Below are positions 22,090 through 37,881 of a stretch of 64,000 nucleotides of DNA, piece by piece. The stretch lies in the NCBI RefSeq assembly GCF_006483455.1, contig NZ_PPPU01000004.1:1-64000 (forward strand), read 5' to 3'. This DNA comes from Methylomonas koyamae. GTDB taxonomy: Bacteria; Pseudomonadota; Gammaproteobacteria; Methylococcales; Methylomonadaceae. Both the position numbers and the translations under genes were made by a program. How positions within the stretch are numbered: the first letter of the stretch is position 1; each line of letters opens with the position of its first letter. A model generated the notes under the pieces. That model did not search any database. It was given only the letters and a program-made list of their open reading frames with translations, and was not told where the DNA came from.

Positions 22090-23187
22090 TTACAACAGGG
22101 TCCGCTCCACCAGCCAGAAGGCGCCCATCACACTGACCGCAACCGAGCCGCCCTTCAAAAACCGGCTGGCCGTTGCGACCTGATTGTTCAGCCACCAGAT
22201 CAACGGCAGCACCAGCGCCGCGACGGCAATCTGTCCGCTTTCTATGCCTAAGTTGAACGCCAGCAGCGGCAACAAAATCCCGGTGTCGGCCGCCGAGATG
22301 TTCATTTCCTGCAACACCCCGGCAAAGCCGAAGCCGTGGATCAGCCCGAAACCGAAGGTCAGCCAGTGCCGGCCCTTGGGCTGGTCGCCACGGACAATGT
22401 TCTCGATGCCGACGTAGATAATCGTCGCGGCGATGAAGGGTTCGACGAAACTGGCCGGCAGTTCGACCAGCCGCAATCCGGCGCAGGCCAGGGTGATGGA
22501 ATGGGCGATGGTAAAGAAAGTGATGATCTTCAACGCCGGCCACAAACTATGCGTCACCGCCAATAATGCGAACAGGAACAGCAGGTGGTCGTAGCCGGTC
22601 AGGATGTGCTCGATACCCAACTTAAAAAAGTCGCCGAACGCCGCGAACGCAGCTTGGGGGGCTGCCGAGTCCGCGACGGCGGCGAGTGTCAGGAGGCATT
22701 GGTCGTCGTTGCGACCCAGCATCTTTTCGGCCAGCGACTTCCCGGCGGCATCGCGTACCGTCAAGTACTGCTGGTGGCCGTCCGGCAGCAATGCCAGAAA
22801 TCCGGATTGCACTCGCAACTGGCGTTGCACCGCCAGCGGATACTGCAACTCGACCTGGGCATTGTTCTTGCCGTCGTAACTGACCGGGCCGGGCTGACTC
22901 TGCACTTCGACGCCGTCAACCGCGATACGCAACTGTTCCGCCAACAGTTTGGCGATGGCGGGCTTGGCCACTTCGCGTTCGGCATCGCTGACTTCGGCGT
23001 CCAGATCGCTATCCATCGCTACGAAGGCTTCGATATCCTGCAACGCAAAGGTTGCGGTGGCCTCGACATGGTCCGGTTTCAGGACCAGATCCAGCGAGCT
23101 GAGTCCGGGCGGATGGGCGTCCGCCCGACCGGCTATCAACCCCAGCAGTAACAACGCCAGCCCGAAAGCCGGAAGTCGAATTGTCAT
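22090..23187 (-). CDS. HupE/UreJ_2 family metal permease with periplasmic domain
   Basis: A 365 aa protein: signal peptide, a periplasmic domain of about 160 residues, then a six-helix HupE/UreJ-type membrane domain. The membrane part has the family hallmark GIEHILTGYDHLLFLFALL and GLIHGFGFAG. HupE proteins bring Ni or Co into the cell; the substrate of this two-domain branch is not settled. After the predicted cleavage site the mature chain would start HPPGLSS. DSDLDAEVSDAE (about residues 59-70) fits an EF-hand loop. The ATG at 23187 has GAGG upstream; a GTG lies three codons earlier. It follows the receptor gene directly, so they share an operon. A full-length paralog is at 34476-35588. 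Confidence 0.85.
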   Translation of the reverse strand: MTIRLPAFGLALLLLGLIAGRADAHPPGLSSLDLVLKPDHVEATATFALQDIEAFVAMDSDLDAEVSDAEREVAKPAIAKLLAEQLRIAVDGVEVQSQPGPVSYDGKNNAQVELQYPLAVQRQLRVQSGFLALLPDGHQQYLTVRDAAGKSLAEKMLGRNDDQCLLTLAAVADSAAPQAAFAAFGDFFKLGIEHILTGYDHLLFLFALLAVTHSLWPALKIITFFTIAHSITLACAGLRLVELPASFVEPFIAATIIYVGIENIVRGDQPKGRHWLTFGFGLIHGFGFAGVLQEMNISAADTGILLPLLAFNLGIESGQIAVAALVLPLIWWLNNQVATASRFLKGGSVAVSVMGAFWLVERTLL

Positions 23188-23197
23188 GCCGCTCACC

Positions 23198-25432
23198 TCA
23201 GAAATTGATGGTAATGGTGCCGCGGAACATGCGCGGTTCGACCGGATGCTTCAGGATGCCGAATTGGTTGGGCGAACCGTTCGGATATGAAGATTCATAG
23301 GCATAGGCGATGTCGTTGCTTTGTGAGCCGAGGATGTTGAACACATCGATCTCGAATTTGTAGCGTTTCTGCTTGTAACCGGCGCTGAGGTTGACGATGT
23401 TGGTATCGCCGGACCAGTAATCGACGTTAGTGTCCGGATCGCGGTCCAGATAGACCCGGCCGAAATGCCGCAAGCGAATCGAGCCGAACAAGCCGTTCGG
23501 CGCTTCGATCGTGGCGCCGGTGGAAACCACCCGGCCGACCGAGTTCGGGATATACAGATTGTTGTCGGCATATTTGGCGGTGGTCAACGCAAAGTCGGCA
23601 TCCAGCGTCAGCCAATCGAACGGTTTGTAGTAGTTGGTCAATTCGACGCCGTAACGGTGCGATTTGCCGGTGGCTTCCGTGGTGCCGGCGTCGCCGACGA
23701 ACACCAGTTCCTGGCTGGATTCCAGCCACCACAAGGCGAAGGTGCTGTTCAGGCCCGGCACATAGTTGCTGCGAATACCGGCCTCACCGCCGCGCGACCA
23801 GGCGGCGGGACGAATGCGGGCGGCGGCCGAGTCGACCGGACTGCCATCGGTTGGATTAACTTGCAGGGTCGTGCCGCGGGCATCGTTGGAGTGGTAACCG
23901 TAACCGGCGTTAAAGAAAAACTCGGTGTCGTACCAGGGCCCCAAGACCAAGCTGATTTTCGGGCTGACCATAACCTTGCCGCGACTGCCCGAGTTGGCCG
24001 CAATCGTCGATGCCAGGCCGCTACCGGTGGCGGCGACCTCGACGTCATTGTTGATAAAGTCGCCGCGCAAACCGGCAATGGTGCGGACTTTATCGTGCCA
24101 GTGCGTGGTGTTTTTGAAGTACGTGCCGACCGTGGTGACGCCGACATTGTGGCGACTGACGGTATTGACGATTTGACGGGCTTCGGTTTCGTACAAGCCC
24201 AAATCCATGATCTGGTCGTTGCGGAATTGCAGACCGACGCTGTTATCCATTTCGAAGCCGAACAATTTGTTGTAGCGGGTGTGTTCGAAATGGCCGCCGG
24301 TCTGCACCCGACGCTCGGATTGCAATATCTGGTCGCCGCCGGCACCGCGGGTAAAACCGCTGAAATTGGAAAACAGGTTCAGGTCGGTATACAAGGCATA
24401 GATATTGGCGTCGTTTTTCCAGTTACCGCCCTGATTCCAGAAACTGGCGGAGGCACTGTATCGGTTGGTTTCGCCGCCGTCGGTCGGGTCCATACTGCCG
24501 TAAAGCCCGAGACTGCCGTTGTCGATCGCCGCTTGCGGAATCTGGTTGGTCGCCGTCCAACTGTTGGTATAGGCCTTACCGTTGATCGACATGCCCCAAT
24601 CGTCGCCGCCCAGGGTGTAACGCAACTGGCCGTTGAATTTCTTCGAGTCTTCCGGCACTTGCCAGACGCCGTCGTACAGATTGAATTCGCCGGCATAGAG
24701 CAAATCGCCGTCGCCGACTTTCATCGAGTTGGCGACCAAAGTCCGGTAATAATCGAACGAACCGGCGGTGAATTTCAAAATGCCCTGATCCAGTTTGTCC
24801 ATCGTGAACATTTTGGCGTAACCGGCGGCGGCAAAGTCGCCGACCTCGGCGTAATAGGGGCCTTTGCCGTATTCGACTTTCTTGACCAGCTCCGGAATGA
24901 TGCTGTTGATGTCCATGTAACCCTGGCCGTGGGCGTGGGTGGTCATGTTCATCGGAATGCCGTCGACGAAGGTGGTGAAGTCGGTACCGTGATCCAGATT
25001 GAAACCGCGCAGGAAGTATTGGTTGGCCTTGCCGGAGCCGCTGTGCTGGGTGGCGATGGCGCCAGGCACGACTTCGATCAGCTCGCCGTTACGCGAGAAC
25101 GGCCGATGTTCGAATTGCTTCTGGCTGACTTCGCCTTGCGAGGCCGACGGCGCGATGCCGATCAGATTTTTGCCGCGGCCGTCTTCCTCGACTTGCACCG
25201 CTTCCAACTCTTCCGACTTTTCCGCTTTTTTGGCTTTTTTGACGGTTTTGGCTGCCGGCTTCGCCTCTTCGGCAGCGGCGACGGCGATCGTATCCGCCGT
25301 ATCCGGCGCCGGCTCGGCCAACACGTCGGCCCCGGCCAGACCAAGGGCGATTTCCAGGCCGACGGCCATTAGTGTTTTGGGAAACAGCGCGGCGCGCCGG
25401 GACAGGCGTAGTGGGTACATATTCTTCCTCAT
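23198..25432 (-). CDS. TonB-dependent outer-membrane receptor, probable metal importer
   Basis: A 744 aa outer-membrane barrel with signal peptide, a Lys/Glu/Ala-rich linker (about residues 40-85), a plug (ELIEVVPGAIATQHSG, QYFLRGFNLDHGTDF) and a C-terminal barrel ending in Phe (GTITINF). The plug loop has TTHAHGQGYMD, with two histidines that could hold a metal. It is flanked by two hupE genes and lies downstream of nikR, so nickel, perhaps cobalt, is the likely cargo. The ATG at 25432 overlaps the end of the upstream hupE by 4 bases. A 635-codon open frame on the other strand is only an antisense shadow. Confidence 0.85.
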   Translation of the reverse strand: MRKNMYPLRLSRRAALFPKTLMAVGLEIALGLAGADVLAEPAPDTADTIAVAAAEEAKPAAKTVKKAKKAEKSEELEAVQVEEDGRGKNLIGIAPSASQGEVSQKQFEHRPFSRNGELIEVVPGAIATQHSGSGKANQYFLRGFNLDHGTDFTTFVDGIPMNMTTHAHGQGYMDINSIIPELVKKVEYGKGPYYAEVGDFAAAGYAKMFTMDKLDQGILKFTAGSFDYYRTLVANSMKVGDGDLLYAGEFNLYDGVWQVPEDSKKFNGQLRYTLGGDDWGMSINGKAYTNSWTATNQIPQAAIDNGSLGLYGSMDPTDGGETNRYSASASFWNQGGNWKNDANIYALYTDLNLFSNFSGFTRGAGGDQILQSERRVQTGGHFEHTRYNKLFGFEMDNSVGLQFRNDQIMDLGLYETEARQIVNTVSRHNVGVTTVGTYFKNTTHWHDKVRTIAGLRGDFINNDVEVAATGSGLASTIAANSGSRGKVMVSPKISLVLGPWYDTEFFFNAGYGYHSNDARGTTLQVNPTDGSPVDSAAARIRPAAWSRGGEAGIRSNYVPGLNSTFALWWLESSQELVFVGDAGTTEATGKSHRYGVELTNYYKPFDWLTLDADFALTTAKYADNNLYIPNSVGRVVSTGATIEAPNGLFGSIRLRHFGRVYLDRDPDTNVDYWSGDTNIVNLSAGYKQKRYKFEIDVFNILGSQSNDIAYAYESSYPNGSPNQFGILKHPVEPRMFRGTITINF

Positions 25433-26682
25433 AGTGCGAATATCGTTGCGGTCGTGGTTGTTATGAACACCGGTCTCGAGCCGGATTGGATGTGGAAAGC
25501 GGTTTTGCTCGCGGCAAACGAGCGGGAACGGCCGGCGCCAAGACAGTACCGGGCCAAGCCGTTGCCGGCGGCGCAAAAGGCGGTCGCGTGCAGGCGGTAA
25601 AAAATTCGGGTGTCGGGAGCGGCGCCAAAAGATTCGGCGCGGATTTGCTGAATGGATTCAGCGGATACGGAAGGGGTGGAGCGAAACGCTAAAGAAATCG
25701 GGGCGGGGCTTGCGGACACGGATAGCGGCGGCGAGGTGCGGCCGACACCGCTGCTGAGCAGCTGGGTGCCCGGTGTCTGGTTGATATCCGGAAAGCGCTG
25801 TTTAAAACCGCTCAGGCAATTGCGGGCCATATCGGCCAGCGCCACAGCAAAGCAATCAAGCACCGGCAATACGCACGCCGCAACCGATTCGGCTCCAGCG
25901 CCCGCAAACCCGGCGGGCGGTTTGGCTAGAGCGGCTTTGGCGCTACTGTTCGCCGCCGCGCTATGAGAATTCTCGCCAGCCAAGTCCCAGTCACCCCCGT
26001 AGCCGGCCAAATTGGCGGAGTAAAACCCCGCATCCGCCTGCAAATGTGTCGAAGCGGCAGGCTCGGCCGTTTCGGTCGGGCCGGCTTTGGCCCATACCGA
26101 CTGCGAAAACATCGCGGTCAATAGAAAAGTCGCGGCCAGCACCACCAACTTGGCGACCAAAATTCCGGCACCGTGCAGCAGCAAGGTCGCCAGCATAAAG
26201 CCCAGCGTGTAAGAAATCAGACTGGCGGAGGTGGAAATTTCCTGGCCGTGGGCAAAGCCGTGGAAAAAGGCGAAGAAGGCGACGATCAGCACGTTGATTT
26301 TGCCGCTGAAGCGAATCTTGCGCGTGATCAGCAAAGCGAATACCGCGCAAGACAACAGAATGATGCCTTCGACGCTGGGTATCGTGATCCCGGCGGCGCC
26401 GGCCAAACCGCCCAGACTCATCACGCCGACGAAGGCCAGCGGCAGCATCCAGACGGCATGACCGCGCAATTGCGCGGCCCAAATTCCGACCGCCAGCATC
26501 GCCAGCAAATGGTCCCACCCGGCCAGCGGGTGGTTGAAGCCGTTGTTCCAGCCCAGCGCGTCCAACCCGAAAAATTGCGCACCGAACCAGACCGCCACCG
26601 CCAGTAACGGCAAACCGAAGCCGAGCAGCCGCAGCCAAGCGGGCAACACTTCGGATGGGGAGCGGGAACGGCGCAATTTCAT
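25429..26682 (-). CDS. HupE/UreJ family protein with long C-terminal extension
   Basis: A 417 aa product. Residues 20-205 are a HupE-type permease: NHPLAGWDHLLAMLAVGIWAA, FFHGFAHGQEIS and SYTLGFMLATLLLHGAG are the family motifs for Ni/Co binding and helices. The remaining 210 residues are a Ser/Ala-rich region with five cysteines that I cannot assign. The codon use there still looks like coding sequence (GC-rich third positions), and the stop overlaps the receptor start. HupE proteins are normally about 200 aa, so the extension is odd. It is the first gene of the operon after the nikR-side palindrome. Confidence 0.75.
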   Translation of the reverse strand: MKLRRSRSPSEVLPAWLRLLGFGLPLLAVAVWFGAQFFGLDALGWNNGFNHPLAGWDHLLAMLAVGIWAAQLRGHAVWMLPLAFVGVMSLGGLAGAAGITIPSVEGIILLSCAVFALLITRKIRFSGKINVLIVAFFAFFHGFAHGQEISTSASLISYTLGFMLATLLLHGAGILVAKLVVLAATFLLTAMFSQSVWAKAGPTETAEPAASTHLQADAGFYSANLAGYGGDWDLAGENSHSAAANSSAKAALAKPPAGFAGAGAESVAACVLPVLDCFAVALADMARNCLSGFKQRFPDINQTPGTQLLSSGVGRTSPPLSVSASPAPISLAFRSTPSVSAESIQQIRAESFGAAPDTRIFYRLHATAFCAAGNGLARYCLGAGRSRSFAASKTAFHIQSGSRPVFITTTTATIFAL

Positions 26683-26807: not shown

Positions 26808-26834
26808 GCCCCGCAGCAGCGGTTTCGAACCGGC

Positions 26835-27302
26835 TCAGCTATGCGGATGAATATGCGAATGGCTATGGCCGTGGTGGTCGTGCTGGTGGCTGACAGTAGC
26901 CAACTTGACCGGTACCAGATTAAGCGCGGCATGGCGGACGCCGGTTTCGGCGGACAGCTTGTCGGCAAACCCGCGGATGCGCGCGGTCAGCCCGCGCAGA
27001 AACAAGGTTTCCAGGCAGTCGTCGTGATCCAGATGCACGTGCATCGACGATACCACCAGGTCGTGGGCGTCGTGCTGGTGGCCGGTCAGGCGCTCCGCCA
27101 GGTTGCGTTCGTGGTGGTTGTAAACATAGGACAGCGTGGCGATGCTGTAGATGGCTTGATCCTGTTTCAGCCGTTTGGTCTCGATTTCCTTGCGCAACAG
27201 GTCGCGGACGGCTTCGGAGCGGTTGGAATAGCCGCGGGCGGCGATCCATTGGTCGAATTCCGCCGCCAGCTCGTCGCTGAGAGAGATAGTAAAACGTTCC
27301 AC
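26835..27302 (-). CDS. nikR: nickel-responsive transcriptional regulator NikR
   Basis: A 155 aa ribbon-helix-helix repressor. The N-terminal DNA-binding part is MERFTISLSDELAAEFD with SNRSEAVRDLL. The C-terminal ACT-like metal domain has the high-affinity nickel ligands: His77 in GHQHDAH, His88 and His90 in MHVHLDHDD, and Cys96. A His-rich tail (HQHDHHGHSHSHIHPH, from 139) is an extra not found in E. coli NikR. It lies upstream of hupE-receptor-hupE on the same strand and is the obvious candidate regulator of them. Three TTATAG repeats at 27318-27348 precede it and could be part of its own promoter. Confidence 0.93.
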   Translation of the reverse strand: MERFTISLSDELAAEFDQWIAARGYSNRSEAVRDLLRKEIETKRLKQDQAIYSIATLSYVYNHHERNLAERLTGHQHDAHDLVVSSMHVHLDHDDCLETLFLRGLTARIRGFADKLSAETGVRHAALNLVPVKLATVSHQHDHHGHSHSHIHPHS

Positions 27303-27439: not shown

Positions 27440-28018
27440 ATGTCCACAGGACATTACACACATGACAATTTCGGCAAAATCGTGATTCGCACGCAAGTGG
27501 GGATTGCGCTGGCCCTTTTACTCTGCTTACCGCTCGCCAATTTCTGGTTTCCCAGCGCCTACAGCGTCAAGGCCGGCATCCACGGCCTCAGCGCTATTCT
27601 GGCGGTGGTCGTCGGTACTTATTTGACGCATAGGGCCTTACCGTTGATCAAAGGCATGCACGTCAATCTGGAGTCGTTGCGCCGCTGGCTACTGGTAGCC
27701 ACCCTGCTGAACTTGGCCGGCGCGATCAGCGGTAACTGGATCTACATGCGTTACCGCGGCCAGGACGGCCCTCGCGACTGGATCTTGGAGCGGGTGCCGG
27801 CAATCCACAACGTGCTGATGGAATTCAAGGAATTCGTCTCGTTGTTTCCGTTCCCGTTAATGCTGTCCGCCACCGTGCTGCTGTATTACTACGGCTTGCC
27901 GATGCAGACCCGGCGCGACCTGTGCCGCTTCGTCGGCATCACGATTCTGGTGTCGTGGAGTTTTCTGATGCTCGGTTTCGTCGTCGGCCTGGTACTGGCC
28001 AAACTGCGCTTCGTTTGA
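27440..28018 (+). CDS. hypothetical inner-membrane protein
   Basis: A 192 aa protein with four or five hydrophobic helices (about residues 18-36, 45-65, 80-100, 132-150, 162-185). I do not recognise it. The segment ISGNWIYMRYRGQDGPRDW between helices is polar and may face the periplasm. It starts an apparent five-gene plus-strand operon (to 29462 or 30001) that diverges from nikR. It follows GGGAGAGG at 27429-27436, a strong ribosome site. Its place next to a CopC-like gene suggests a metal-related role. Confidence 0.65.
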   Translation: MSTGHYTHDNFGKIVIRTQVGIALALLLCLPLANFWFPSAYSVKAGIHGLSAILAVVVGTYLTHRALPLIKGMHVNLESLRRWLLVATLLNLAGAISGNWIYMRYRGQDGPRDWILERVPAIHNVLMEFKEFVSLFPFPLMLSATVLLYYYGLPMQTRRDLCRFVGITILVSWSFLMLGFVVGLVLAKLRFV

Positions 28019-28032: not shown

Positions 28033-28443
28033 ATGCAACAACAATCCGAATCGAATATTCAAGCGCTAAGGTCCGGCCCGGTCGTGGCGGCCAGCCTGGC
28101 GTTACTGCTAGCGTTTTTGACCTTGATGGTCAGCCACCATATTTCCCGGCTGTCGCCCGGCCTGGACAAGCTGGTGCATAGCTACGGTTACTGGATTCCC
28201 GGCTCGCAAGGCAAGGGGCCGGACGGCAGCATCGGCTCTTACACCGGCAAGGAAACCCTGGCCATCGGCGTCTGGCTGTTGAGTTGGTTGGCATTCCACC
28301 TGATGTGGCGCAAACAGGATCTGGATTTGACGATCTGGACCCGGATTTTCGTCATCAGTCTGGCCGTCATTACGCTGGGTTTCTTTCACCCCTTGTCCGA
28401 TCCGCTGGTGTTGTTCATCGCCGGCTTTTTTGGCCTGCCCTGA
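28033..28443 (+). CDS. hypothetical small membrane protein
   Basis: A 136 aa protein with three hydrophobic helices (about residues 17-37, 75-92 and 99-130). The polar stretch between the first two, SYGYWIPGSQGKGPDGSIGSY, is probably periplasmic. No family is recognised. It starts 14 bases after the previous gene and ends 9 bases before the CopC-like gene. The ATG at 28033 is chosen because the frame upstream lies inside the neighbouring gene. Confidence 0.6.
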   Translation: MQQQSESNIQALRSGPVVAASLALLLAFLTLMVSHHISRLSPGLDKLVHSYGYWIPGSQGKGPDGSIGSYTGKETLAIGVWLLSWLAFHLMWRKQDLDLTIWTRIFVISLAVITLGFFHPLSDPLVLFIAGFFGLP

Positions 28444-28452: not shown

Positions 28453-28842
28453 ATGCCCAAGTTGTTAGATCTACTCGTCCCGATATGGCTGGTTTTGGCG
28501 GGCCCCAACGCTCTGGCGGAAGGCGTTTTGCTGAAATCGGAGCCGAAAAACGACGCCGAAGTGAGCAATTTCGATGGCACCGTCAAATTCTGGTTCAGCG
28601 GCAATGTCGGCGAACGCTCGCCGTCGGTCGTCGTGGTCGATGCCCACGGCAAACGGGTCGACAACGGCGACACCCGTCTGGTGTTGGGCGAACGCCACCG
28701 ACTAACCGCAACCACCCAAGCCCTGCCGCCCGGCCCTTACGCCGTCCGCTATCGGGTGATTACCGAGGACGGGCTGGTGGTCAGCGGCATCTCCAAGTTT
28801 ACCGTCGTCGCCGCAGCGGCGAGTCCGGAGGCCAAGCCATGA
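28453..28842 (+). CDS. CopC-domain periplasmic protein lacking histidine ligands
   Basis: A 129 aa protein: signal peptide (cleavage likely after ALA at residue 22) and one CopC beta-barrel domain (LLKSEPKNDAEVS, then YAVRYRVITEDGLVVSG). In copper-binding CopC the mature chain begins with His, and the TEDGL position reads S-x-D-G-H. Here Glu23 and Leu108 replace these histidines. So it keeps the fold but likely not the Cu(II) site; another metal or a structural role is possible. The stop overlaps the next gene (ATGA). The sister gene at 36260-36643 keeps both histidines. Confidence 0.85.
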   Translation: MPKLLDLLVPIWLVLAGPNALAEGVLLKSEPKNDAEVSNFDGTVKFWFSGNVGERSPSVVVVDAHGKRVDNGDTRLVLGERHRLTATTQALPPGPYAVRYRVITEDGLVVSGISKFTVVAAAASPEAKP

Positions 28843-29462
28843 AAATGTTATCTGTTTTGATCCTGGCCGCTACCGCCCTCGGCCAAGCGCAGGCGTCGGT
28901 ACCGCTGGGCGGCAACCGCAAAGGCGCCGACGGCAATTACGACCTGTACGGTTGCATGCTGACCAACGACTATTACGTGGTCAATTTTTCCGCCTATCAA
29001 CTCGACCCGAACCAGGCCAAGGACGATAAATCCATACCGCAGGCCGAATGCGTCGATCTGCCGCGGGTCGGCAAAACCCAAATCGCGGTAGACCTGCTGG
29101 ACCTGGATGTGCGGAAAAAACCGGTCGGCCTGAAGATTTTGCGCGAGGACGGTCAAGTCATCGCCGAAGTGCCGATGGCCGTGGTCAAGCAAGGCGTATT
29201 GACGGCCAGCGTGGATTTCAAAACCGCCGGCAAATACCAAGCCGTGCTGTCGGTGCAGGACTCCGATTTGCACACGCCGCCGGAAACCAGCGCCTTGCAT
29301 ATGCCGTTGACGGTAGCGATGGCGCCGCCGCCGTCGGCAGCCAATGCCGGCAGCGCCAAAGGGCTGGGCGTGGTGTTCGGCGTGCTGGGCCTTTGCCTGG
29401 CGTTGGCCGCCTACTACATCCCGCGGCTGCTAAAGCCGCGCACCGACGGCAGCCCGTCGTAA
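28839..29462 (+). CDS. unknown periplasmic protein with C-terminal membrane anchor
   Basis: A 207 aa protein: signal peptide, a periplasmic domain with two cysteines (in LYGCMLTNDYYVVNFSAYQ and QAECVDLP) and a C-terminal membrane helix (about residues 175-197) ending in a basic tail. No family name is known to me. A paralog at 35594-36247 shares the CxxxNDxYxVxFSAY pattern and the same anchor. In both places the gene follows copC, so the pair is a conserved unit, likely handling a metal on the periplasmic face of the membrane. Confidence 0.7.
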   Translation: MKMLSVLILAATALGQAQASVPLGGNRKGADGNYDLYGCMLTNDYYVVNFSAYQLDPNQAKDDKSIPQAECVDLPRVGKTQIAVDLLDLDVRKKPVGLKILREDGQVIAEVPMAVVKQGVLTASVDFKTAGKYQAVLSVQDSDLHTPPETSALHMPLTVAMAPPPSAANAGSAKGLGVVFGVLGLCLALAAYYIPRLLKPRTDGSPS

Positions 29463-30081: not shown

Positions 30082-30789
30082 ATGCGCAATTTTTTACCAC
30101 GCCGGACGGCAGCCTGCCTGCTGTTGCCGGCAACATTCGCCGCGGCGGCCGGCCCGGTCCGCGACGATTTCGGCGTCTGGATCAGCAATACTTACCAAAC
30201 CGACTTCGGCGGCAGCCCCTATCTGGCTTTTTTGGAACTGGCGCCCAGAACCAAGACCGACAACGACCAGTTCGCCCAAATCATCGTCCGGCCGCTGGTC
30301 GGTTACAAGCTGACCAAAAAGCTGCAACTCTGGGCCGGCTACACCTGGCAAGGCGAATACAACGAGCAGACCGATTTCGAATTGGCCACCAACGACGCCA
30401 TGCAACAGTTGCAATGGGTCGACAACTGGTCGCCGGAGTGGAATTTTCAGTATCGCTTCCGCCTGGAGCAACGCTTTTTCTCCGAAGAAGACAACGTCGC
30501 CCACCGCATGCGCCACCGCGTTCGTTTGGTGTACTCGATACCCGACACCAAAGCCTACCTGATAGCCATAGACGAGCTCTTCGTCTATTTCAATTCGTTG
30601 GACGACGGCCGCCTGGCGCGTTCGGTGCAAACCGGCATCAACCAGAACCGCAGCTACCTCGGCATCGGTTATAAATTGACGCCGGAGCTGAACGTCGACA
30701 CCGGCTACCAACTGCAATACGTGCACAACTACGGCGCGCCGGATTTGGTCAATCATGTCTGGTTTACCAACATCAACGTCAACTTCTGA
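30082..30789 (+). CDS. DUF2490 family outer-membrane barrel protein
   Basis: A 235 aa protein with a signal peptide and alternating beta strands, ending in the aromatic terminus NINVNF typical of outer-membrane barrels. The stretch FGVWISNTYQTDF and the RYRFRLEQRFF-like region match DUF2490 members. No substrate is known for the family. It lies 80 bases after the haem-motif lipoprotein on the same strand. Its place in the island suggests an outer-membrane role in metal traffic, but that is inference. Confidence 0.7.
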   Translation: MRNFLPRRTAACLLLPATFAAAAGPVRDDFGVWISNTYQTDFGGSPYLAFLELAPRTKTDNDQFAQIIVRPLVGYKLTKKLQLWAGYTWQGEYNEQTDFELATNDAMQQLQWVDNWSPEWNFQYRFRLEQRFFSEEDNVAHRMRHRVRLVYSIPDTKAYLIAIDELFVYFNSLDDGRLARSVQTGINQNRSYLGIGYKLTPELNVDTGYQLQYVHNYGAPDLVNHVWFTNINVNF

Positions 30790-30874: not shown

Positions 30875-31243
30875 TTACTGGAATTTGGTCAGACCGGCAA
30901 AGCCTGCACGGGCTTCTTTCAATTCTTGTTCCGCGCCGGCGAAATCGGATTTCTTAGCCAACTCTCTGGCTTTTTTCATTTTCAAAACCACTTTGTCGCG
31001 TTCGAATTCGAATTTGTAGTTGGCGTTCAGTTCGCTGGCGCTCTCTGCGACTTCCTTGATCAAACTGGCGACTTTAGTCGGATCGGCCGAAGGAATCGCG
31101 TCCAAGGCAACCTGTATCTTGGCGTCCACTTCTTTCAATACCTCAGGCACGCTCTTTTTGGCTTCTTTGGCCAAGGTCGCGCCGGAAAAGCCCAGCATTG
31201 AAAAAAACAGGGTGAACGCGATTAAAACTTTTTTGAATGACAT
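30875..31243 (-). CDS. small periplasmic helical protein, unknown
   Basis: A 122 aa protein with a classical signal peptide (cleavage after TLA, near residue 25) and a Lys/Glu/Ala-rich helical mature part, for example KKARELAKKSDFAGAEQELKE. It may form a small helical bundle. No cysteine or histidine cluster is present, so metal binding is not evident. It is monocistronic, with its own terminator at 30804-30831. The function is unknown. Confidence 0.65.
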   Translation of the reverse strand: MSFKKVLIAFTLFFSMLGFSGATLAKEAKKSVPEVLKEVDAKIQVALDAIPSADPTKVASLIKEVAESASELNANYKFEFERDKVVLKMKKARELAKKSDFAGAEQELKEARAGFAGLTKFQ

Positions 31244-31344: not shown

Positions 31345-31911
31345 TTAATTTATTCGGGCTGCGTCCCTGCGGGCAGGCCCCACCAGCAATGCCGGGATGG
31401 CCCGATTTGCGGCAACGCCGAGCGCTAGTTGACTCAAAGTCGCTAAGGTAAAACCTGCGGTATAACCGAGCGCGTCGCTATCCAGCCAAATATCGTAAGC
31501 ATGGGCGTATCCATGACATACCGCGACGCCGGCAATCACCGATAACGACAAAGCCCAATGCAATTGGCGTCCCGACGCCAGCAGTAAGCCCAGCACCAAA
31601 ATGCCGGCGTACATCAGCGTTTCGGGATGGGCAATCTCCAGCGGAACCAAAGCCATTGCGCCGCCCAACAACAGCAACGCCAGGAACGTCAGCGCCAGCG
31701 AGACGACGGCTCGACCATGGCCGCTACGGCAGATCCACAACCCGACAAAAAGCATCATCAAGATATGGTCCGAACTGGAAAAAGGATGCAGCAATCCGCT
31801 GCCGAAACCGATCGCTTCGCCGGCCTCATGGAAAGGATGGGCATAGGCTGGCATCGAACCGGCCGAAAACATTAATATCGTTAACAAAAAACGCTTGAAA
31901 GACTTGCTCAT
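31345..31911 (-). CDS. hupE: HupE/UreJ family metal permease
   Basis: A 188 aa protein of normal HupE length with a signal-like N-terminus and six hydrophobic helices. The metal-binding motif is clear: HPFSSSDHILMMLFVGLW near the mature N-terminus, plus CHGYAHAYD in a later helix. HupE proteins import Ni2+ for hydrogenase or urease, or Co2+. I use the ATG at 31911 because AGAGGT precedes it; an ATG at 31929 adds six residues. An AT-rich inverted repeat at 32056-32086 lies about 145 bases upstream. Confidence 0.88.
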   Translation of the reverse strand: MSKSFKRFLLTILMFSAGSMPAYAHPFHEAGEAIGFGSGLLHPFSSSDHILMMLFVGLWICRSGHGRAVVSLALTFLALLLLGGAMALVPLEIAHPETLMYAGILVLGLLLASGRQLHWALSLSVIAGVAVCHGYAHAYDIWLDSDALGYTAGFTLATLSQLALGVAANRAIPALLVGPARRDAARIN

Positions 31912-31929
31912 AGTGACCTCTGCCTGCAA

Positions 31930-32241
31930 AGGGTTATGGTGGACACTGAACCTGGTTCGAACGGCGCGCCACTCCGAAATGATGGTTTGGCGGCACCAGC
32001 CCGACTTTGGAGGGCGTCAGCACCGGCACCACGCAAACGAGGGCTATCTTAGCAAAAATATGAAGTTTTAATAATATTTCATATTTCGCGCTTGCCGGCC
32101 CTGCTCAGCAGAATTTTGCCTAAGCAAGATGACAGCGTTTTGACCGCGCCGCCGGGCACACCAAAGCGAAAACGCCGGGAGGGATTGCGCCATTAAAACG
32201 CCCCCTTCTCCGCGGAATAGGTGAAAGCCGATAAAACCGAG
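31930..32241. other. intergenic region upstream of hupE
   Basis: No gene is seen here. It contains the AT-rich inverted repeat at 32056-32086 and then GC-rich sequence that ends at the stop codon of the receptor tail (32242). A frame continuing through 32120-32241 only extends the broken response regulator. Confidence 0.45.
32056..32086. promoter_or_regulatory. AT-rich inverted repeat upstream of hupE
   Basis: AAATATGAA (32056-32064) and TTCATATTT (32078-32086) form a perfect 9-base inverted repeat with a 13-base spacer. The inner ATATGA-N15-TCATAT resembles the E. coli NikR site (GTATGA-N16-TCATAC) but the spacing is one base short. It is a possible NikR operator; related sequence occurs at 33461-33483. 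Confidence 0.4.
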
Positions 32242-32355
32242 TTAGAACTCGTACTGAAAGCCGACGCAAACCAGGCGCGGCATGCCTGACTGGATGCCGC
32301 GGCCCCGGTCGGTCTTGTAGTTGTTGTCTAGCAGGTTTTTCATCGCCACGAACAG
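32242..32355 (-). pseudogene. C-terminal remnant of a TonB-dependent receptor
   Basis: The minus strand encodes VAMKNLLDNNYKTDRGRG and ends GFQYEF before a stop, the last strands of a TonB-dependent receptor barrel. All upstream parts are missing. At about 32355-32370 it joins directly to a broken response-regulator gene in another frame. The tail differs in sequence from the remnant at 19937-20049, so they come from different receptors. Confidence 0.75.
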
Positions 32356-32369
32356 CTATCGGGCTCGGC

Positions 32370-32916
32370 CGATCGCTGTAGACGTGTTCGCCCAGTTGCG
32401 CCTTGCTCAACACCTTGCCGGGGTTGAGCATGAAGTAACGCAATAGCCTGAATTCGATCGCGGTCAGCAGTTGGGCCTCGCCGCCGGCTGGTGTCGCGGT
32501 TTGCTCGTCTTCGTCGAGTTCGACGCCAAACACCGTTAATCTGGACTGGTTGAATGGTGTACCCGCTTCAAAACCGCCTGTAAGCGGGCCAGCAATTCTT
32601 GGGGATGGCAGGGTTTGCAAACGTAATCGTCAGCGCCGGCCTTGAAACCGTCGACGATTTCGTACCAGGCATCGCGGGCGGTCAACACAATGACCGGCAT
32701 GGCGTTACCGGCGTCGCGCCAGCATTTCAGCACGTCCAGGCTGGCGAGTTTGGGCAAACCAAGATCGAGGATCGCCGCATCGTATTGTTCGGTGGCGCCG
32801 AGGAATTCACCTTGCTCACCGTCGCCAGCGGTATCGACGATGTAGCCGGCGCCGCGCAAATCGGCGGCCAGCAGTACAGCAAAGGCCGGATCGTCCTCGA
32901 CCAGTAACAGACGCAT
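32370..32916 (-). pseudogene. OmpR/PhoP-type response regulator, frameshifted and truncated
   Basis: The first part (32536-32916) is a full receiver domain: RLLLVEDDP, phosphorylated Asp in AAILDLGLPK, and VIVLTARD. A frameshift in the linker around 32545-32560 ends it with a stop. The winged-helix part continues in another frame (LTVFGVELDEDEQ, EFRLLRYFMLNPGKVLS, AQLGEHVYS) and is cut off at about 32370, where receptor-tail sequence begins. The recognition helix is missing, so it cannot bind DNA. No histidine kinase is beside it. A stand-alone receiver might still be made, but a decayed gene is more likely. Confidence 0.8.
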
Positions 32917-32927: not shown

Positions 32928-33365
32928 TTACATCGCGTGCATTTTGTAGTCGACTCGCGGATAGCCCTTCTTGTCGCGCGGATCGGCCTGTTCGGCATCA
33001 CCAAGCTCGGCGCGCTGTTTGCCGGATTCGGTAAGCAATTGCTCCCAATTTTGATAACTCGCATATTTCGGGTCGCCGGCAGATTTGCGCGCGCCGAACG
33101 CGGCCTGCCCCAGTTCGATCAACTGCGACGGGGTCTTGCCGTCTATCGTTTTCAGAAAGTCGGCTTCGTGCTTGAGCTGCTCCCGCACCAACCAGTAGGC
33201 CACTTCGAACGGTAACTGGCGGTCCGGCGGCAGGTGCTGTTTGATGCGATTCATCGATTTGTGGGCGGCTTGCAAATTCCTGGCGTTGATTTGGTCCGGC
33301 GCTCCGCAACCGGCCATCAGCAATGCCAATAACACCAGCCCGAATCCCAATTTCACTATCTTCAC
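32928..33365 (-). CDS. lipoprotein of unknown function
   Basis: A 145 aa protein with a signal peptide and a good lipobox (LLMAGC, Cys20). The mature part is helical and charged, with a conserved-looking RNLQAAHKSMNRI and FEVAYWLVREQ. I do not recognise the family with certainty. Its start is close to 100 bases downstream of an AT-rich sequence (33461-33483) that is similar to the one upstream of hupE, so the two genes may be coregulated. It lies 11 bases upstream of the broken response regulator. Confidence 0.6.
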   Translation of the reverse strand: MKIVKLGFGLVLLALLMAGCGAPDQINARNLQAAHKSMNRIKQHLPPDRQLPFEVAYWLVREQLKHEADFLKTIDGKTPSQLIELGQAAFGARKSAGDPKYASYQNWEQLLTESGKQRAELGDAEQADPRDKKGYPRVDYKMHAM

Positions 33366-33573: not shown

Positions 33574-34362
33574 CTAGGAAATCGGCGGCTCGTCTTGCAA
33601 CGAAAATATGATCGGCACTAACACCGAGCTGGCGACAGCAACATCGTTGCGCTTGGCCGGCACGAAGCGCCATTGTTTGAGGGCCTCCAGCGCCGACTCG
33701 TCGAGCAACTCGTGGCCGCAGCTTTGCTCGAGCTCTACGGTTTCGGCACGGCCTTCGGCGTCGACTTGCACCCGCAGCAACACCTTACCCTGCCAGCCCC
33801 GGCTGCGGGCAATGCTCGGATAGTCCGGCTTCGGGTTGTGCTGGTACTCCGCACTCAGGTAGGCCTCGGTAAACACCGGTTTTTCGCCGTCAGCCACCAC
33901 ATCCTGGGCAATCTCGGGCCGGTTGGTCTGAATTTCTGGTTTCGGGGCTTGATCGAGGACCTGGTCCAACACCGAGAAATCGGATGCCGGCGCCTGGGGG
34001 ATAACGCGCTTCAGTTTGGGCTTGGGTTGAGGTTTTTTCTGCGCCGGCTTGGCCGTTTCCGGCGGTGCGGCTCGGGCCGGCGCGGTCTGCGCCGCCCGGA
34101 TCTTGATGGTGGAAACTTGTAGCGGTAAGGGTTGCGCGACTGCCTGCGCAATACTGGGGCAAAACAAACAACGGACCCCGAAAAAATGCAGCGCGGCGAC
34201 GGCCGCCACTATGCTGGCCAAGACCGCAAGATTAGACGAACGCTCCTTTCGATAGGCGCCGGCGGCCGGCTGCGGCACTCCGCGCAGACCCGCAGCAGCG
34301 AAAGGCGGCAGTGGGTTTCGAGCAATCACAAATCCGTTTTGGCCAGCTCTGGGAAATAGCAC
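33574..34362 (-). CDS. tonB: TonB energy transducer
   Basis: A 262 aa protein that couples the inner-membrane proton gradient to outer-membrane receptors. The N-terminal helix is at about residues 43-62, a Pro/Lys/Ala-rich spacer follows (PAQKKPQPKPKLKR), and the C-terminal TonB domain has NPKPDYPSIARSRGWQGKV and SALEALKQWRFVPAKR. ExbB and ExbD are not nearby. Its place in the island, with the receptor at 23198-25432, suggests a dedicated TonB for metal uptake. Confidence 0.88.
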   Translation of the reverse strand: MLFPRAGQNGFVIARNPLPPFAAAGLRGVPQPAAGAYRKERSSNLAVLASIVAAVAALHFFGVRCLFCPSIAQAVAQPLPLQVSTIKIRAAQTAPARAAPPETAKPAQKKPQPKPKLKRVIPQAPASDFSVLDQVLDQAPKPEIQTNRPEIAQDVVADGEKPVFTEAYLSAEYQHNPKPDYPSIARSRGWQGKVLLRVQVDAEGRAETVELEQSCGHELLDESALEALKQWRFVPAKRNDVAVASSVLVPIIFSLQDEPPIS

Positions 34363-34475: not shown

Positions 34476-35588
34476 TTAAAGCAGGGTCCGTTCGATAAAC
34501 CAGTATGCTCCGACCAGGCAAACCAGCGCCGAACAGCCTTTCAGAAACTTGTCGGCATAGGGTTTGTGGTTCAGCCACCAAATCAGCGGCAAGACGACGG
34601 ATGCGACTGCGATTTGGCCGGTCTCGATACCGAGATTGAACGACAACAACGGCATCAGGATGCCGCTATCGCCGGAACTGATATCCAACTCGCGCAACAC
34701 GCTGGCAAAGCCGAAGCCGTGGATCAAGCCGAAACTGAAGGTCAGCCATTCCCGACCTTTGGGGTGATCGCCGCGAATCAGGTTTTCGACGCTGACATAC
34801 ACAATCGTCGCAGCGATGAACGGTTCGACGAAACTGCTCGGCAAATCGACCAGATTCAAGCCGGCGCAGGCCAGCGTGATGGAATGGGCGATCGTGAAAA
34901 AGGTGACGATTTTGATCGCCGGCCAGAAGCTGTGGGTGACCGCCAGCAGCGCGAACAGAAACAGCAAATGGTCGTAACCGGTCAGGATATGCTCGACGCC
35001 CAGCTTCAGAAAATCCAGAAAGGTCGAACCGGTTTGGCCGACCTCGGCGCCAGTGGCTGCCGCGAGATCGAGCTGCAATTGGTCGTCATCGCGGCGCAGC
35101 ATTTTCTCGGCGATTTGTTTGCCGCCGGCATCGCGCACGGTCAAGTGCTGCTGGTGGCCGTCCTGCAACCAGGCCAGAAACTTGGACTGCATCAGCAATT
35201 GCCGTTTCGGCGCCGGCTGGAAACTGAATTCGACATGGGCATTGTTCTGGTCGTCGTAATTCACGCTACCCGGCACAACCGGCAGAACGTCGGCACCGTC
35301 GATGTTGACCCGGGTCTGCTCGGCCAGGAGTTGGGCCACGGCGGGTTTGGCCGCTTCGCGTTCGGCGGCGCTGACCTCGGCATCCAGGTCGGTATCCATC
35401 GGCGAAAAGGCTTCGATGTCCTGCAAAGCAAAGGTCATTTTGGCGACGACGCGGTCGGCTTGCATCGTCAACTCTATCGAACTCAAACCCGGCGCGTGCG
35501 CCGCGGCCCAGTTCGAAACCGAAAGCAAAACCATCGCCAAAACATACCTGCAGCCGGCCGACGCCGACATGTCCCACAATCTAGCCAT
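34476..35588 (-). CDS. HupE/UreJ_2 family metal permease with periplasmic domain
   Basis: A 370 aa paralog of the protein at 22090-23187, with the same layout: signal peptide, mature N-terminus HAPGLSS, periplasmic domain, then membrane domain with GVEHILTGYDHLLFLFALL and GLIHGFGFAS. DTDLDAEVSAAE (residues 65-76) again fits an EF-hand loop. It follows the anchored lipoprotein gene by 5 bases and belongs to the minus-strand operon from 36643. The second ATG at 35570 is another possible start. Ni, Co or Cu are possible substrates. Confidence 0.85.
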   Translation of the reverse strand: MARLWDMSASAGCRYVLAMVLLSVSNWAAAHAPGLSSIELTMQADRVVAKMTFALQDIEAFSPMDTDLDAEVSAAEREAAKPAVAQLLAEQTRVNIDGADVLPVVPGSVNYDDQNNAHVEFSFQPAPKRQLLMQSKFLAWLQDGHQQHLTVRDAGGKQIAEKMLRRDDDQLQLDLAAATGAEVGQTGSTFLDFLKLGVEHILTGYDHLLFLFALLAVTHSFWPAIKIVTFFTIAHSITLACAGLNLVDLPSSFVEPFIAATIVYVSVENLIRGDHPKGREWLTFSFGLIHGFGFASVLRELDISSGDSGILMPLLSFNLGIETGQIAVASVVLPLIWWLNHKPYADKFLKGCSALVCLVGAYWFIERTLL

Positions 35589-35593
35589 CGGCT

Positions 35594-36247
35594 TTATTCC
35601 TGCTCTGCGGCGGCTTTGCGTTTCCGGCGCAGCAAATAAACCAGAAAGCCCGCCACTGCGGCGATCGCTGCAGCGACGCCGCCGATGGCCAGCCAGGGCG
35701 GTTGCTGGCCGTCCGGCGCCACACCGACTTGCAAGGCGACGCGGAACTTATCGTCGTCCTCGATCGCATCGCCGATCAGCAGATACAGTACATAGTCGCC
35801 GGTTTTATCGACATCGGCTTGGGCCTCGACGGCGCCTTTCGGATAGAGCTTGGCCGGAATTTCGGTAACGGTGCGAATTTCGCGGATGTCATCCGGCGCT
35901 TTTTGCCCGGTTTTTTCGACTTCCACCAAGCGGATGCCGATCGGCGTACTGCGGATGTCGCGATCGATCAAATCGGCGGTGAAAAACATTTTGCCGGCGC
36001 GCGGGATTTGTTGGCAAAACGGCACGAAGGCGGTTTTGGCGTCGACGGTTTTGTCGTTCTTGTCCGGCTGCAGATAGGCGCTGAAATGCACCGCGTAAAA
36101 GTCGTTGGCGATAATGCAATCCAGGTCGGGCCGATTGCCCAGGGCGTTGGATTGTTTGGTGCCGAAATCGAGTTTGTCGCAACCGCTCAGCAACAGGGCG
36201 CCCAGCAGGACTAGCGCCCAAAACGCGGAAAATCTTTGAATTGTCAT
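35594..36247 (-). CDS. unknown lipoprotein with C-terminal membrane anchor (paralog of 28839-29462)
   Basis: A 217 aa protein with lipobox LLLSGC (Cys23), a periplasmic domain and a C-terminal helix followed by a basic tail (LLRRKRK). The stretch LDCIIANDFYAVHFSAYLQ matches LYGCMLTNDYYVVNFSAYQ in the paralog, and later FCQQIPRAGK matches ECVDLPRVGK. It follows copC by 12 bases. This copC-plus-anchored-protein pair occurs twice in the island, so the two gene products probably act together. No family name is known to me. Confidence 0.7.
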   Translation of the reverse strand: MTIQRFSAFWALVLLGALLLSGCDKLDFGTKQSNALGNRPDLDCIIANDFYAVHFSAYLQPDKNDKTVDAKTAFVPFCQQIPRAGKMFFTADLIDRDIRSTPIGIRLVEVEKTGQKAPDDIREIRTVTEIPAKLYPKGAVEAQADVDKTGDYVLYLLIGDAIEDDDKFRVALQVGVAPDGQQPPWLAIGGVAAAIAAVAGFLVYLLRRKRKAAAEQE

Positions 36248-36259
36248 GACTGAAGCCGA

Positions 36260-36643
36260 TTAAGGTTTGATGGTGAATTCGAACTTGCCGGTAACGATGT
36301 GGGTATCTTCGGACACCACCCGGTAACGCACGGTATAGACGCCCGGCGCCAGCGTCGGCACGGTGGCGTGGATATTGGCGCCGTTGGTCAGGCTTTGCTC
36401 GACGTCGTGGTTGTCGACCCGTTTGCCGGTGCTATCGATCACGGCCAGCGCCTTGTACTCGCTGCGCACCGCGTCGTTAAACCACAAATCGATTTGCTTC
36501 GGCGATTCGGTCAGCGTCTCGTCCTTGGCCGGTTGCGACTTCACCAGAATCGCATGGGCAAAAACCGGTAACGGACTCAATAGCGCGAGCGCCAGCAAGC
36601 CGGGTTTTATTATTGTTGTTATGTCTAACTTGGGCATGACCAC
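36260..36643 (-). CDS. copC: CopC copper-binding protein
   Basis: A 127 aa periplasmic protein of the CopC family, which binds Cu(II) at its N-terminal histidine. After cleavage at VFA the mature chain starts HAILVKSQPAKDE, so His30 becomes residue 1 (histidine-brace position). SEDTHIVTG supplies Asp113 and His115, the other expected ligands. It therefore keeps the copper site that the sister CopC at 28453-28842 has lost. It heads a minus-strand operon with the anchored lipoprotein and the HupE/UreJ_2 gene. Confidence 0.9.
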   Translation of the reverse strand: MVMPKLDITTIIKPGLLALALLSPLPVFAHAILVKSQPAKDETLTESPKQIDLWFNDAVRSEYKALAVIDSTGKRVDNHDVEQSLTNGANIHATVPTLAPGVYTVRYRVVSEDTHIVTGKFEFTIKP

Positions 36644-36660
36644 CTCTTAAATTCGTGAAC

Positions 36661-37881
36661 TCATTGTAAAACGGCTGCCGACCAGACTTTGCCGGTCGGC
36701 GATTGCTCCAGCCACATCGCCAAAAACCCGTTCGGCGTCGCCACGATGCGCGGAAAGGATGCCGCGGCGGGCGACAATTGCCGGGCCGGTAACCAGCTGC
36801 GGCCGCTATCGGCCGATTCGCTGAAATAGACCCGCGAACCCTCCGGCCCCAATGCATCCCACACTGCCACCAATCGGCCGGAGCCGGCGGCAATATCGGC
36901 ATGGAACGCCGGGCCTTCGCCCAGACGTTGCGGCGGCGTCCAACTGGCGCCGTTATCGTTGGATTGCATATGATACAACCCAACCCGGTTTTCCGCGCCG
37001 GTCCAGACCACGCTGTGTAAAGTTCGGTCATCGGCCAGCGCCAAACCGCCGCCGTTGTGCGGGCAACCGTCGAACCGCCAATCGAAGGCGCCGACGCTGC
37101 CGGCCCGGCGCCAGGTTGCTCCCGCGTCGGCCGACTGTGCCAGTGCCATGTCGCGCGGCACCATATCTCGATACAACGCATTTATCCCGCCGTCCGCACC
37201 GGTCGCCAGGCGGTTCCAGCAACAGGAACAACTGGTGTCGTCTATGGTTTGCGCCAGTTCCCAATGTTGGCCGGCGTCGCTGGAGCGGGCATAACGCAGG
37301 CCTTGATAACCATTCTCGTCCCTGTCGTCCAGCCAGACGGCATGGAAGCGGCCGTCGGTGTCCGCCAGCAAATCGGGGTGGGACTGGTCGGCATCGCTGC
37401 CGGTCGGCTTGGCGCCGGCCGCCCAGGTTTGCCCGCCATCGCTGGAATAGGCGCTGGCCAGCGGCCCCATGCCAGGCAATTCGCCGGTGGCTTGCCAAAC
37501 CGCCAGCAGATTCTCGCCGCTGGCGGCGATCTGGATATCGTTGCCGGCTTTGGATTCGATCGGCCGGCCGGCGCTTGGCGCGATGGCTTGCGGCGCCGAC
37601 CAGTGTAAGCCGCCATCGTCGGAATGCAGGTAGGCAACAGAAGGCGTTTTAGTATCGGTGGCCGTCGCCAGGAAAACGGCATGCAGCCGGTTCCGGTCCA
37701 GGTACACATCGAAACTGGCGACATTTTGCAAGTGCAAGGCCGGCAGATCGACCGGCGCCGTTAGCGTCGCAGCCAGCGGCTTGGCGGCCGGTTGGCCAAG
37801 GCCGGGGATATCGCCGCAACCGGGCAATCCAACAACGCTAAATAGCGCAATCCAAAAATGAGCGGTCCTGGAATTCGGCAT
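36661..37881 (-). CDS. Asp-box (sialidase-like) beta-propeller lipoprotein with CSCC motif
   Basis: A 406 aa protein with lipobox VGLPGC (Cys22) and six Asp-box repeats (SDDGGLHW, SSDGGQTW, SSDAGQHW, SADAGATW, SNDNGASW, SADSGRSW), giving a six-bladed propeller. Near residue 215 TSCSCCWNR places three cysteines (218, 220, 221) on one blade, a possible metal site. The sialidase catalytic arginine triad is not evident, so hydrolase activity is doubtful. It lies 17 bases upstream of copC on the same strand, which suggests a periplasmic role in copper or related metal handling. Confidence 0.8.
   Translation of the reverse strand: MPNSRTAHFWIALFSVVGLPGCGDIPGLGQPAAKPLAATLTAPVDLPALHLQNVASFDVYLDRNRLHAVFLATATDTKTPSVAYLHSDDGGLHWSAPQAIAPSAGRPIESKAGNDIQIAASGENLLAVWQATGELPGMGPLASAYSSDGGQTWAAGAKPTGSDADQSHPDLLADTDGRFHAVWLDDRDENGYQGLRYARSSDAGQHWELAQTIDDTSCSCCWNRLATGADGGINALYRDMVPRDMALAQSADAGATWRRAGSVGAFDWRFDGCPHNGGGLALADDRTLHSVVWTGAENRVGLYHMQSNDNGASWTPPQRLGEGPAFHADIAAGSGRLVAVWDALGPEGSRVYFSESADSGRSWLPARQLSPAAASFPRIVATPNGFLAMWLEQSPTGKVWSAAVLQ

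Follow-up and report, generated by a model that had tools for sequence, protein, structure and literature searches.

Genes of nickel and of copper families stand side by side in a short region of the Methylomonas koyamae genome, and the question raised by this locus is whether they form one path for one metal. The region (positions 22090-37881) lies in the window, that is, the whole stretch of 64,000 nucleotides analysed here (positions 1 to 64,000 of contig NZ_PPPU01000004.1). An earlier note, made from the DNA letters, had listed there the nickel regulator NikR, two HupE and two HupE/UreJ_2 permeases, a TonB-dependent receptor, TonB, two CopC proteins, two anchored proteins, two lipoproteins and a DUF2490 barrel, and had proposed a full path for a metal. 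Every family named was found by the Pfam and NCBIfam scans, and the mixture of nickel and copper families is real. The reading that fits best is a copper unit with a nickel-type receptor operon next to it, within a composite of three modules; a single pathway was not supported.

Gene order defines the modules. Unit b consists of a BNR lipoprotein, CopC, PmoD and HupE/UreJ_2, in some cases preceded by a regulator and a kinase; unit a of the membrane proteins MP1 and MP2, CopC, PmoD and a cytochrome c; and operon n of HupE, the TonB receptor and HupE/UreJ_2, with nikR alongside in many Methylomonas. MP1 and MP2, ahead of the first copC, and the QseBC-like kinase/regulator pair ahead of unit b had not been listed before. 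On balance, we favour the reading in which unit b is a periplasmic copper-capture unit, unit a is its sister without ligands, and operon n is a nickel-type outer-membrane receptor operon. The metal that each part would handle was judged from its family, its ligands and its kin.

The anchored proteins belong to the PmoD family

The two anchored proteins, PmoDa of unit a and PmoDb of unit b, are 30% identical to each other and had no Pfam match over the cut-off. A two-row profile of the pair matched the PmoD structure PDB 6CPD with an E value of 8.2e-6, and a 26-row profile matched it with an E value of 6.6e-16, both cysteines being aligned. These cysteines, C44 and C78 (CxnC), are invariant in 26 of 26 rows, and a C-terminal hydrophobic anchor was recognised by eye in the PmoD-like proteins. 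Judged by sequence, both are PmoD/AmoD-family copper proteins. Some parts had earlier been left without a name; the anchored pair now has one, and MP1 and MP2 are still without a family.

In the part of Fisher et al. 2018 (PMC6189053) considered here, PmoDs are described as copper proteins, for the most part of methane and ammonia oxidisers, and those with the motif Cx7MxHxnC form CuA and are mostly linked to pmo/amo operons. The Cx9HxnC class (22.2% of PmoDs) frequently neighbours copC, and the one member tested was found to bind copper but not to form CuA; another 29.0% have no ligand beyond CxnC, with copC or genes of unclear relevance as neighbours. A figure legend of that paper indicates that copper down-regulates the copC-adjacent pmoD of Methylosinus trichosporium. 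The window proteins resemble these in the periplasmic domain with two invariant cysteines, the C-terminal anchor and the copC-adjacent Cx9HxnC setting. In contrast to the CuA class, they have no Met at Cys+8 (PmoDb has Ala at +8 and His at +10, PmoDa Val at +8 and Asn at +10) and are therefore not members of it; PmoDa also lacks the His, and neither gene is in a pmo operon.

CopC and PmoD retain or lose copper ligands together

The order was searched in 151 genomes, of which 92 had a PmoD-like match. To establish gene order, phmmer searches with the proteins of the window, which miss diverged genes, were made in 40 stretches and in 53 named loci, the latter including one metagenome-assembled genome (MAG) labelled Cytophagaceae and many labelled only 'proteobacterium' (loci and genomes carry our L and G numbers). 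Ligands and neighbours were counted for 86 distinct PmoD-like genes on 82 loci, which share ancestry and come partly from the same genomes, identical C-termini being counted once. CopC is encoded directly upstream of PmoD in 82 of the 86 (the exceptions are in L069, L070, L073 and L074), and the pairing was found at at least 79 of 96 places in an order-wide listing restricted to PmoD matches of E 1e-20 or better.

The copper ligands of CopC are His1, Asp and His. CopCb of the window has H-D-H in these columns, and CopCa has E-D-L. The same division was found across the order: where PmoD has His (64 genes) or Tyr (4 genes) at Cys+10, its CopC partner has H-D-H in 67 of 68 cases and gap-D-H in the other, and where PmoD has Asn, which occurred exclusively in unit a, the partner has E-D-L (14 of 14). 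Thus, unit a has lost the copper ligands from both proteins and unit b retains both sets. Since unit a is a single lineage, the ligands may have been lost in one event; the loss nevertheless affects the two proteins alike, and this supports the view that CopC and PmoD work as a pair.

The partners of CopC are exclusive as well. Among the 150 CopC genes listed in the order, 79 are within 1.2 kb of a PmoD-like gene and 67 within 2.5 kb of CopD, none has both beside it, and four have neither. This count used 127 CopD places, and none of the weaker CopD matches listed, which were inspected by eye, coincides in contig position with a PmoD-linked CopC. The CopC family is thus common to unit b and to ordinary copCD pairs, whereas CopD is beside none of the 79 PmoD-linked CopC genes among those listed. 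M. koyamae has an ordinary copC-copD pair on another contig.

The BNR lipoprotein of unit b contains three C[ST]CC cysteines that are invariant in all 59 aligned rows (BNR matches under 150 bits were left out), and these may bind metal.

The permease of unit b carries an Ang-1-like domain

HupE/UreJ_2 directly follows PmoD in 40 of the 78 genes with enough downstream sequence, and the association depends on the kind of unit: 38 of 51 units of the BNR type, versus none of the 14 with MP2 upstream. An AlphaFold2 model of the permease of unit b, HupE2b (20 rows, mean pLDDT 79.8), was searched with Foldseek, and the first 15 PDB matches (E <= 0.001) were all to ZrgA, PA4063 and 9GCE (E 9.5e-5 for 9GCE). 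According to the part of PMC12537917 considered here, 9GCE is the copper-bound Ang-1 domain of a HupE/UreJ-2 protein in which His1 holds the copper, RbAng-1a binds Cu2+ with a dissociation constant of 73.6 nM and Ni2+ with one of 220 nM, and the domain is proposed to feed the permease. When superposed by VIA, residues 31-176 of the model aligned with residues 1-157 of 9GCE (Z 11.2, root-mean-square deviation 2.9, 128 residues), with His31 on His1. This His31, which follows the signal peptide by a cleavage site placed by eye, is invariant in 20 HupE2 rows, the alignment of the L070 row being doubtful.

HX5DH is the motif of HupE nickel permeases, and its residues H200, D206 and H207 are invariant in the same rows. 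No significant similarity between the HupE2 sequence and the PDB, Ang-1 included, was found by profile or phmmer, and the Ang-1 assignment was therefore made by the fold, the N-terminal His and the fusion to HupE/UreJ_2. Accordingly, the N-terminal domain of HupE2b is modelled as an anglerase-like domain with putative copper binding. It resembles the anglerases of PMC12537917 in these three respects, in contrast to which it has no sequence similarity that we could find and lies directly downstream of copC-pmoD.

HupE2a of operon n is 66% identical to HupE2b. In a quick tree, poorly resolved inside and with L070 and L072 on very long branches, the receptor-linked permease of the window falls into one Methylomonas clade of 31 rows (26 PmoD-linked and 5 receptor-linked; SH-aLRT 99). 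The permease of the receptor operon may have been acquired from the copper unit. Elsewhere in the genome, another, diverged HupE/UreJ_2 gene was observed (G000:C7:162327-162800, L149), with no copC or pmoD found in the surrounding 11 kb.

The modules scatter while their contents mostly stay together

Comparison of gene order in relatives, in which scattering would speak against a common island, gave a divided answer: the modules scatter, and their contents mostly stay together. In the 12 Methylomonas genomes with at least two PmoD-like genes, the units are 6.8-10.7 kb apart in four, 0.17-3.3 Mb apart on one contig in five, and on different contigs in three. One island for one metal was therefore rejected. 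What stands of the proposed full path is that receptor, carriers and permease recur together. The same stretch carries a receptor from the family of the window receptor in 11 of the 40 loci of the first set and 13 of the 53 named loci, counts that are affected by the many fetched stretches ending at contig ends. These loci include the arrangement receptor-BNR-CopC-PmoD in two Nitrosomonas MAGs. In one of them (L136 3209-3706), a 165-aa exported protein with no NCBIfam match is encoded between the TonB receptor and the BNR gene.

This scatter might be taken to mean that the modules are chance neighbours with unrelated tasks, unit a being an electron-transfer module (a b561-like MP1, a cytochrome c and degenerate CopC and PmoD) and not a metal transporter. 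The units are not adjacent, as assembled, in 8 of the 12 genomes, and unit a does contain a CxxCH protein. Both MP1 and MP2 show strong conservation, His residues included. The MP1 model gave nothing by Foldseek at E <= 0.001, and by VIA it aligned best to cytochrome b561 (Z 11.9) and Dcytb (Z 11.6), a range reached by chance among helical bundles. On the other side, a Methylococcales MAG that is not related (L116) has units a and b next to each other, along with receptor and HupE fragments, and in L044, L046, L048 and L050 unit a is followed downstream by HupE1b on the same strand. We regard the chance association as rather doubtful. This explanation and those discussed below overlap with each other and with the one that we prefer, and their likelihoods are not meant to sum to one.

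A similar unit in family f4 and its possible counterpart in a copper-responding cluster

We take the family f4 of our set to be Methylococcaceae in the sense of GTDB. Among 14 loci scanned, six, all of f4 (L065, L068, L071, L144, L145 and L147), have BNR-CopC-PmoD followed by an ABC-ZnuA set, which comprises a 559-aa-type protein, an ABC ATPase, a MacB/FtsX-like permease and ZnuA. In Methylomagnum (L140) the set follows BNR-CopC-PmoD at some distance, and in L067 (G091) unit a is divergent to an ABC-ZnuA operon, by which the set is linked to both kinds of unit; it was not found in L064, L066, L072, L136, L137 and L146. In Methylococcus capsulatus Bath, copper-responding cluster 3 (CRC 3, MCA2168-2179), which is induced under copper limitation, is described in the part of PMC4831470 considered here as hypothetical proteins, a ZnuABC-like ABC system and copC. 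This composition, copC with a ZnuABC-like transporter as in the f4 loci, suggests that CRC 3 could be the same unit. In contrast, HupE/UreJ_2 occupies the place of the ABC set in Methylomonas.

The receptor of operon n and NikR

The kin of the TonB receptor may point to another metal. A tblastn search gave 50 plasmid records, of which 25 were listed, and six loci were picked by hand, partly because hydrogenase plasmids are known; all six have NikR, HoxN/hydrogenase or cobalamin genes within ~5 kb of the receptor relative. HoxN is 4.4 kb away on Cupriavidus necator pHG1, with a regulatory hydrogenase also near; HoxN and hydrogenases are near on a Bradyrhizobium plasmid, NikR and HoxN on a Paraburkholderia plasmid, and hyp genes and NikR on an Afipia plasmid. 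In Methylomagnum, NikR is directly upstream of the receptor, and on the opposite strand ZnuA-ABC starts 0.7 kb beyond, followed by PmoD-CopC-BNR ~7-8 kb off. The weakest case is a Methylorubrum plasmid with cobalamin genes ~3 kb away. The C. necator, Bradyrhizobium, Afipia and Paraburkholderia receptors are 39-42% identical to that of the window over 87-89% of its length, with NikR within ~1.1 kb in Afipia and Paraburkholderia. In contrast to the HupE and HupE/UreJ_2 of the window, the permease is HoxN in C. necator, Bradyrhizobium and Paraburkholderia. These neighbours suggest that the cargo may be nickel or cobalt. By phmmer, the receptor had no match in the PDB.

In a 27-row receptor tree, rooted at the midpoint and with long branches for L064 and L143, the window receptor falls into a Methylococcales clade that includes Methylomagnum. 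A second clade, including the two Nitrosomonas MAGs, lies beside BNR-CopC-PmoD, and the other five plasmid receptors form a third group.

The assignment of NikR itself is firm, with RHH and the nickel-binding NikR_C domain over the curated cut-off. NikR was found in 22 of the 151 genomes (a partial match in G100 was left out), and Methylomonas was the one genus in which a PmoD-like gene lay less than 4 kb from it (12 of 23 NikR genes). The genome also encodes [NiFe] hydrogenase large subunits (E 2e-226 and 2.7e-56), which would provide a use for nickel. The consensus of the NikR operator is GTATGA-N16-TCATAC. A perfect site lies between hupE1 and nikR in G063 and another next to nikR in G151 (L076), and these two were the only sites used as evidence. 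Further perfect sites are present in G088, G152 and G164, with no window-type gene around those of G088 and G152 (L077 and L079), and six sites with three mismatches occur elsewhere in the window versus 10.6 expected.

Weighing of the readings

Family membership, gene order, the conservation and co-loss of ligands, the fold of the permease N-terminal domain and the kin of the receptor were directly observed. Several results weigh against our division into a copper unit and a nickel-type operon. Among units of the BNR type, 13 of 51 have no HupE/UreJ_2 downstream of PmoD. By VIA, the zinc proteins ZrgA (Z 12.2) and PA4063 (Z 11.0) tie or nearly tie with Ang-1, and the part of PMC12537917 considered here reports nickel binding by Ang-1 too and refers to domains of the HupE/UreJ type as known nickel permeases. 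That CRC 3 may be the same unit was drawn from its composition. The plasmid receptor loci were chosen by hand, the receptor clade of the window is also linked to CopC-PmoD (L064 and L068), and the second clade is wholly so; because of these links in both methanotroph clades, nickel as cargo is not certain. NikR stands at unit b in M. lenta (L096), which blurs the split between copper and nickel. No NikR-type site was found near the nikR of the window with up to three mismatches, or in its genome (G000) with up to one, and sites were not enriched in relatives, with 9 real versus 20 shuffled sites at up to two mismatches in the 40 loci and, in summed counts, 75 forward versus 101 control matches in 37 Methylomonas genomes. 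A diverged operator may be present in the window.

The links of two receptor clades to BNR-CopC-PmoD, one including Nitrosomonas, might instead mean that everything in the region serves copper, the receptor and HupE having been repurposed in methane and ammonia oxidisers and NikR being an incidental neighbour in Methylomonas. The receptor-HupE pair that stays with unit b in L039, from a genome that lacks NikR (G036), and the single Methylomonas clade of receptor-linked and PmoD-linked permeases are consistent with this. We nevertheless consider it improbable, since perfect NikR-type operators precede the receptor operon or lie beside nikR in two relatives and the adjacency of NikR and receptor recurs far outside the group. 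Also unlikely is a nickel (or cobalt) uptake island, all under NikR and with CopC and the PmoD-like proteins as periplasmic nickel carriers for four HupE permeases: NikR is beside unit a in 9 of 10 fetched Methylomonas unit-a loci (all except L048), receptor kin are near HoxN and hydrogenase, unit a is without copper ligands and both HupE and Ang-1 allow for nickel, yet no more than 22 of the 92 genomes that encode PmoD-like proteins also have NikR, unit b retains the copper ligands of CopC and of PmoD, PmoDs are copper proteins, and the NikR-type site is missing near nikR.

Features of the region and its surroundings

The features are collected in Table 1. The same-species genome G057 (L035 9195-12885) holds 3.7 kb that are absent from the window, with the junction at ~32355. 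This segment contains half a response regulator, a PhoQ-like kinase and almost all of a siderophore/FecA-type TonB receptor, of which the window keeps remnants. The sensor kinase ahead of unit b was considered as CopS and rejected, its score being under the cut-off. A predicted cobalamin riboswitch (49928-50149, 92.1 bits) lies upstream of a putative BtuB-like receptor and putative cobalamin-type genes, so named from their sequence.

Table 1. Genes and remnants at 22090-40052 of the window, with the evidence for each
Feature	Position	Strand	Evidence and remarks
HupE2a, HupE/UreJ_2 permease with periplasmic N-terminal domain (operon n)	22090..23196	-	PF13795 E 6e-46; His after signal peptide and HX5DH kept
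TonB-dependent receptor, nickel/cobalt-type judging by genes next to its relatives (operon n)	23198..25432	-	Plug E 8e-14; tree
HupE1a, HupE permease, long low-complexity C-terminal tail	25429..26682	-	PF04955 E 2e-42; 4-nt overlap with receptor start
NikR nickel-responsive regulator	26835..27302	-	PF08753 E 1.6e-30; NF002815 182.9 bits (cut-off 83)
MP1, unnamed polytopic membrane protein (unit a)	27440..28018	+	His48, His64, His123 invariant (13 aligned copies); no Pfam/NCBIfam match
MP2, unnamed membrane protein (unit a)	28033..28443	+	no Pfam match over cut-off; adjoins MP1 wherever MP1 found
CopCa, without N-terminal His and second His ligand (unit a)	28453..28842	+	PF04234 E 5.7e-15
PmoDa, PmoD-family anchored protein, Asn at Cys+10 (unit a)	28839..29462	+	profiles match PDB 6CPD
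c-type cytochrome lipoprotein, CNACH (unit a)	29528..30001	+	Cytochrom_C_2 E 0.002, under cut-off; CxxCH in 12/12 aligned copies including window
DUF2490 outer-membrane barrel	30082..30789	+	PF10677 E 1.4e-44
Small exported helical protein, unnamed	30875..31243	-	no curated match; near unit a in relatives
HupE1b permease	31345..31929	-	PF04955 E 6e-33
Truncated response regulator and receptor tail at 3.7-kb deletion	32120..32916	-	junction ~32355
Small lipoprotein	32928..33365	-	weak DUF6694, under cut-off; near units a or b in relatives
TonB	33574..34362	-	PF03544 E 7e-22
HupE2b, Ang-1-like domain fused to HupE/UreJ_2 permease (unit b)	34476..35588	-	PF13795 E 1.3e-46; fold match 9GCE
PmoDb, PmoD-family, Cx9HxnC class (unit b)	35594..36247	-	profile match PDB 6CPD
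CopCb, His1/Asp/His ligand set (unit b)	36260..36643	-	PF04234 E 1.8e-25
BNR/Asp-box lipoprotein, invariant C[ST]CC (unit b)	36661..37881	-	PF13088 E 3.7e-19
Sensor histidine kinase, QseC-like	37990..39393	-	under curated cut-off; ahead of unit b in many Methylomonas loci
Response regulator, QseB/PmrA-like	39393..40052	-	under curated cut-off

Proposed pathway and implications

In the copper-unit reading that we prefer, the sensor kinase and regulator would control the genes of unit b, periplasmic copper would be bound by CopC, through its His brace, and by PmoD, and would be passed to the Ang-1-like domain, which would feed the HupE channel. The HupE/UreJ_2 permease would thereby take the position of CopD in ordinary copCD pairs. 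Operon n, with a permease that is close kin to that of unit b, would import nickel, or cobalt, for the [NiFe] hydrogenases of the organism. We infer here the direction of transport, the identity of the metal, the hand-over between partners and the control by the kinase pair or by NikR.

A broader proposal is possible, and we offer it tentatively. In gammaproteobacterial methanotrophs, CopC would work in two exclusive systems, CopC-CopD and CopC-PmoD with an importer of its own, which would be the anglerase-HupE/UreJ_2 in Methylomonas and near relatives or ZnuA-ABC in f4. HupE/UreJ_2 would be the copper importer of the inner membrane that has been missing, supplied through CopC and PmoD from the BNR lipoprotein and from a TonB receptor descended from nickel receptors. 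Unit a, linked to NikR in Methylomonas, would be a copper-capture pair stripped of its ligands for another metal or role.

The kinds of protein are themselves known; what is new here is that PmoD-CopC copper proteins are joined to a permease of the anglerase type, with a nickel-type receptor operon next to them. The cluster was not described in the titles and abstract beginnings searched, and the supplements of Fisher 2018 or Lawton 2016 could still mention it. By the same titles and abstract beginnings, the anglerase paper was the only relevant one on HupE and methanotrophs or methane oxidation, and two archaeal papers were found on CopC, sialidase and methane. The word "methanotroph" is absent from the main text of PMC12537917, as are the terms CopC, PmoD, HupE and NikR from PMC12811070.

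The delivery of copper to the copper monooxygenases of methanotrophs and ammonia oxidisers is a standing question, for which a membrane copper importer is not established, and many PmoDs outside pmo operons have no assigned job. In the conserved unit, the copC-adjacent PmoD is associated with a single kind of permease and of lipoprotein and, in many cases, with a TonB receptor, and this provides a short list of candidate genes for copper import.

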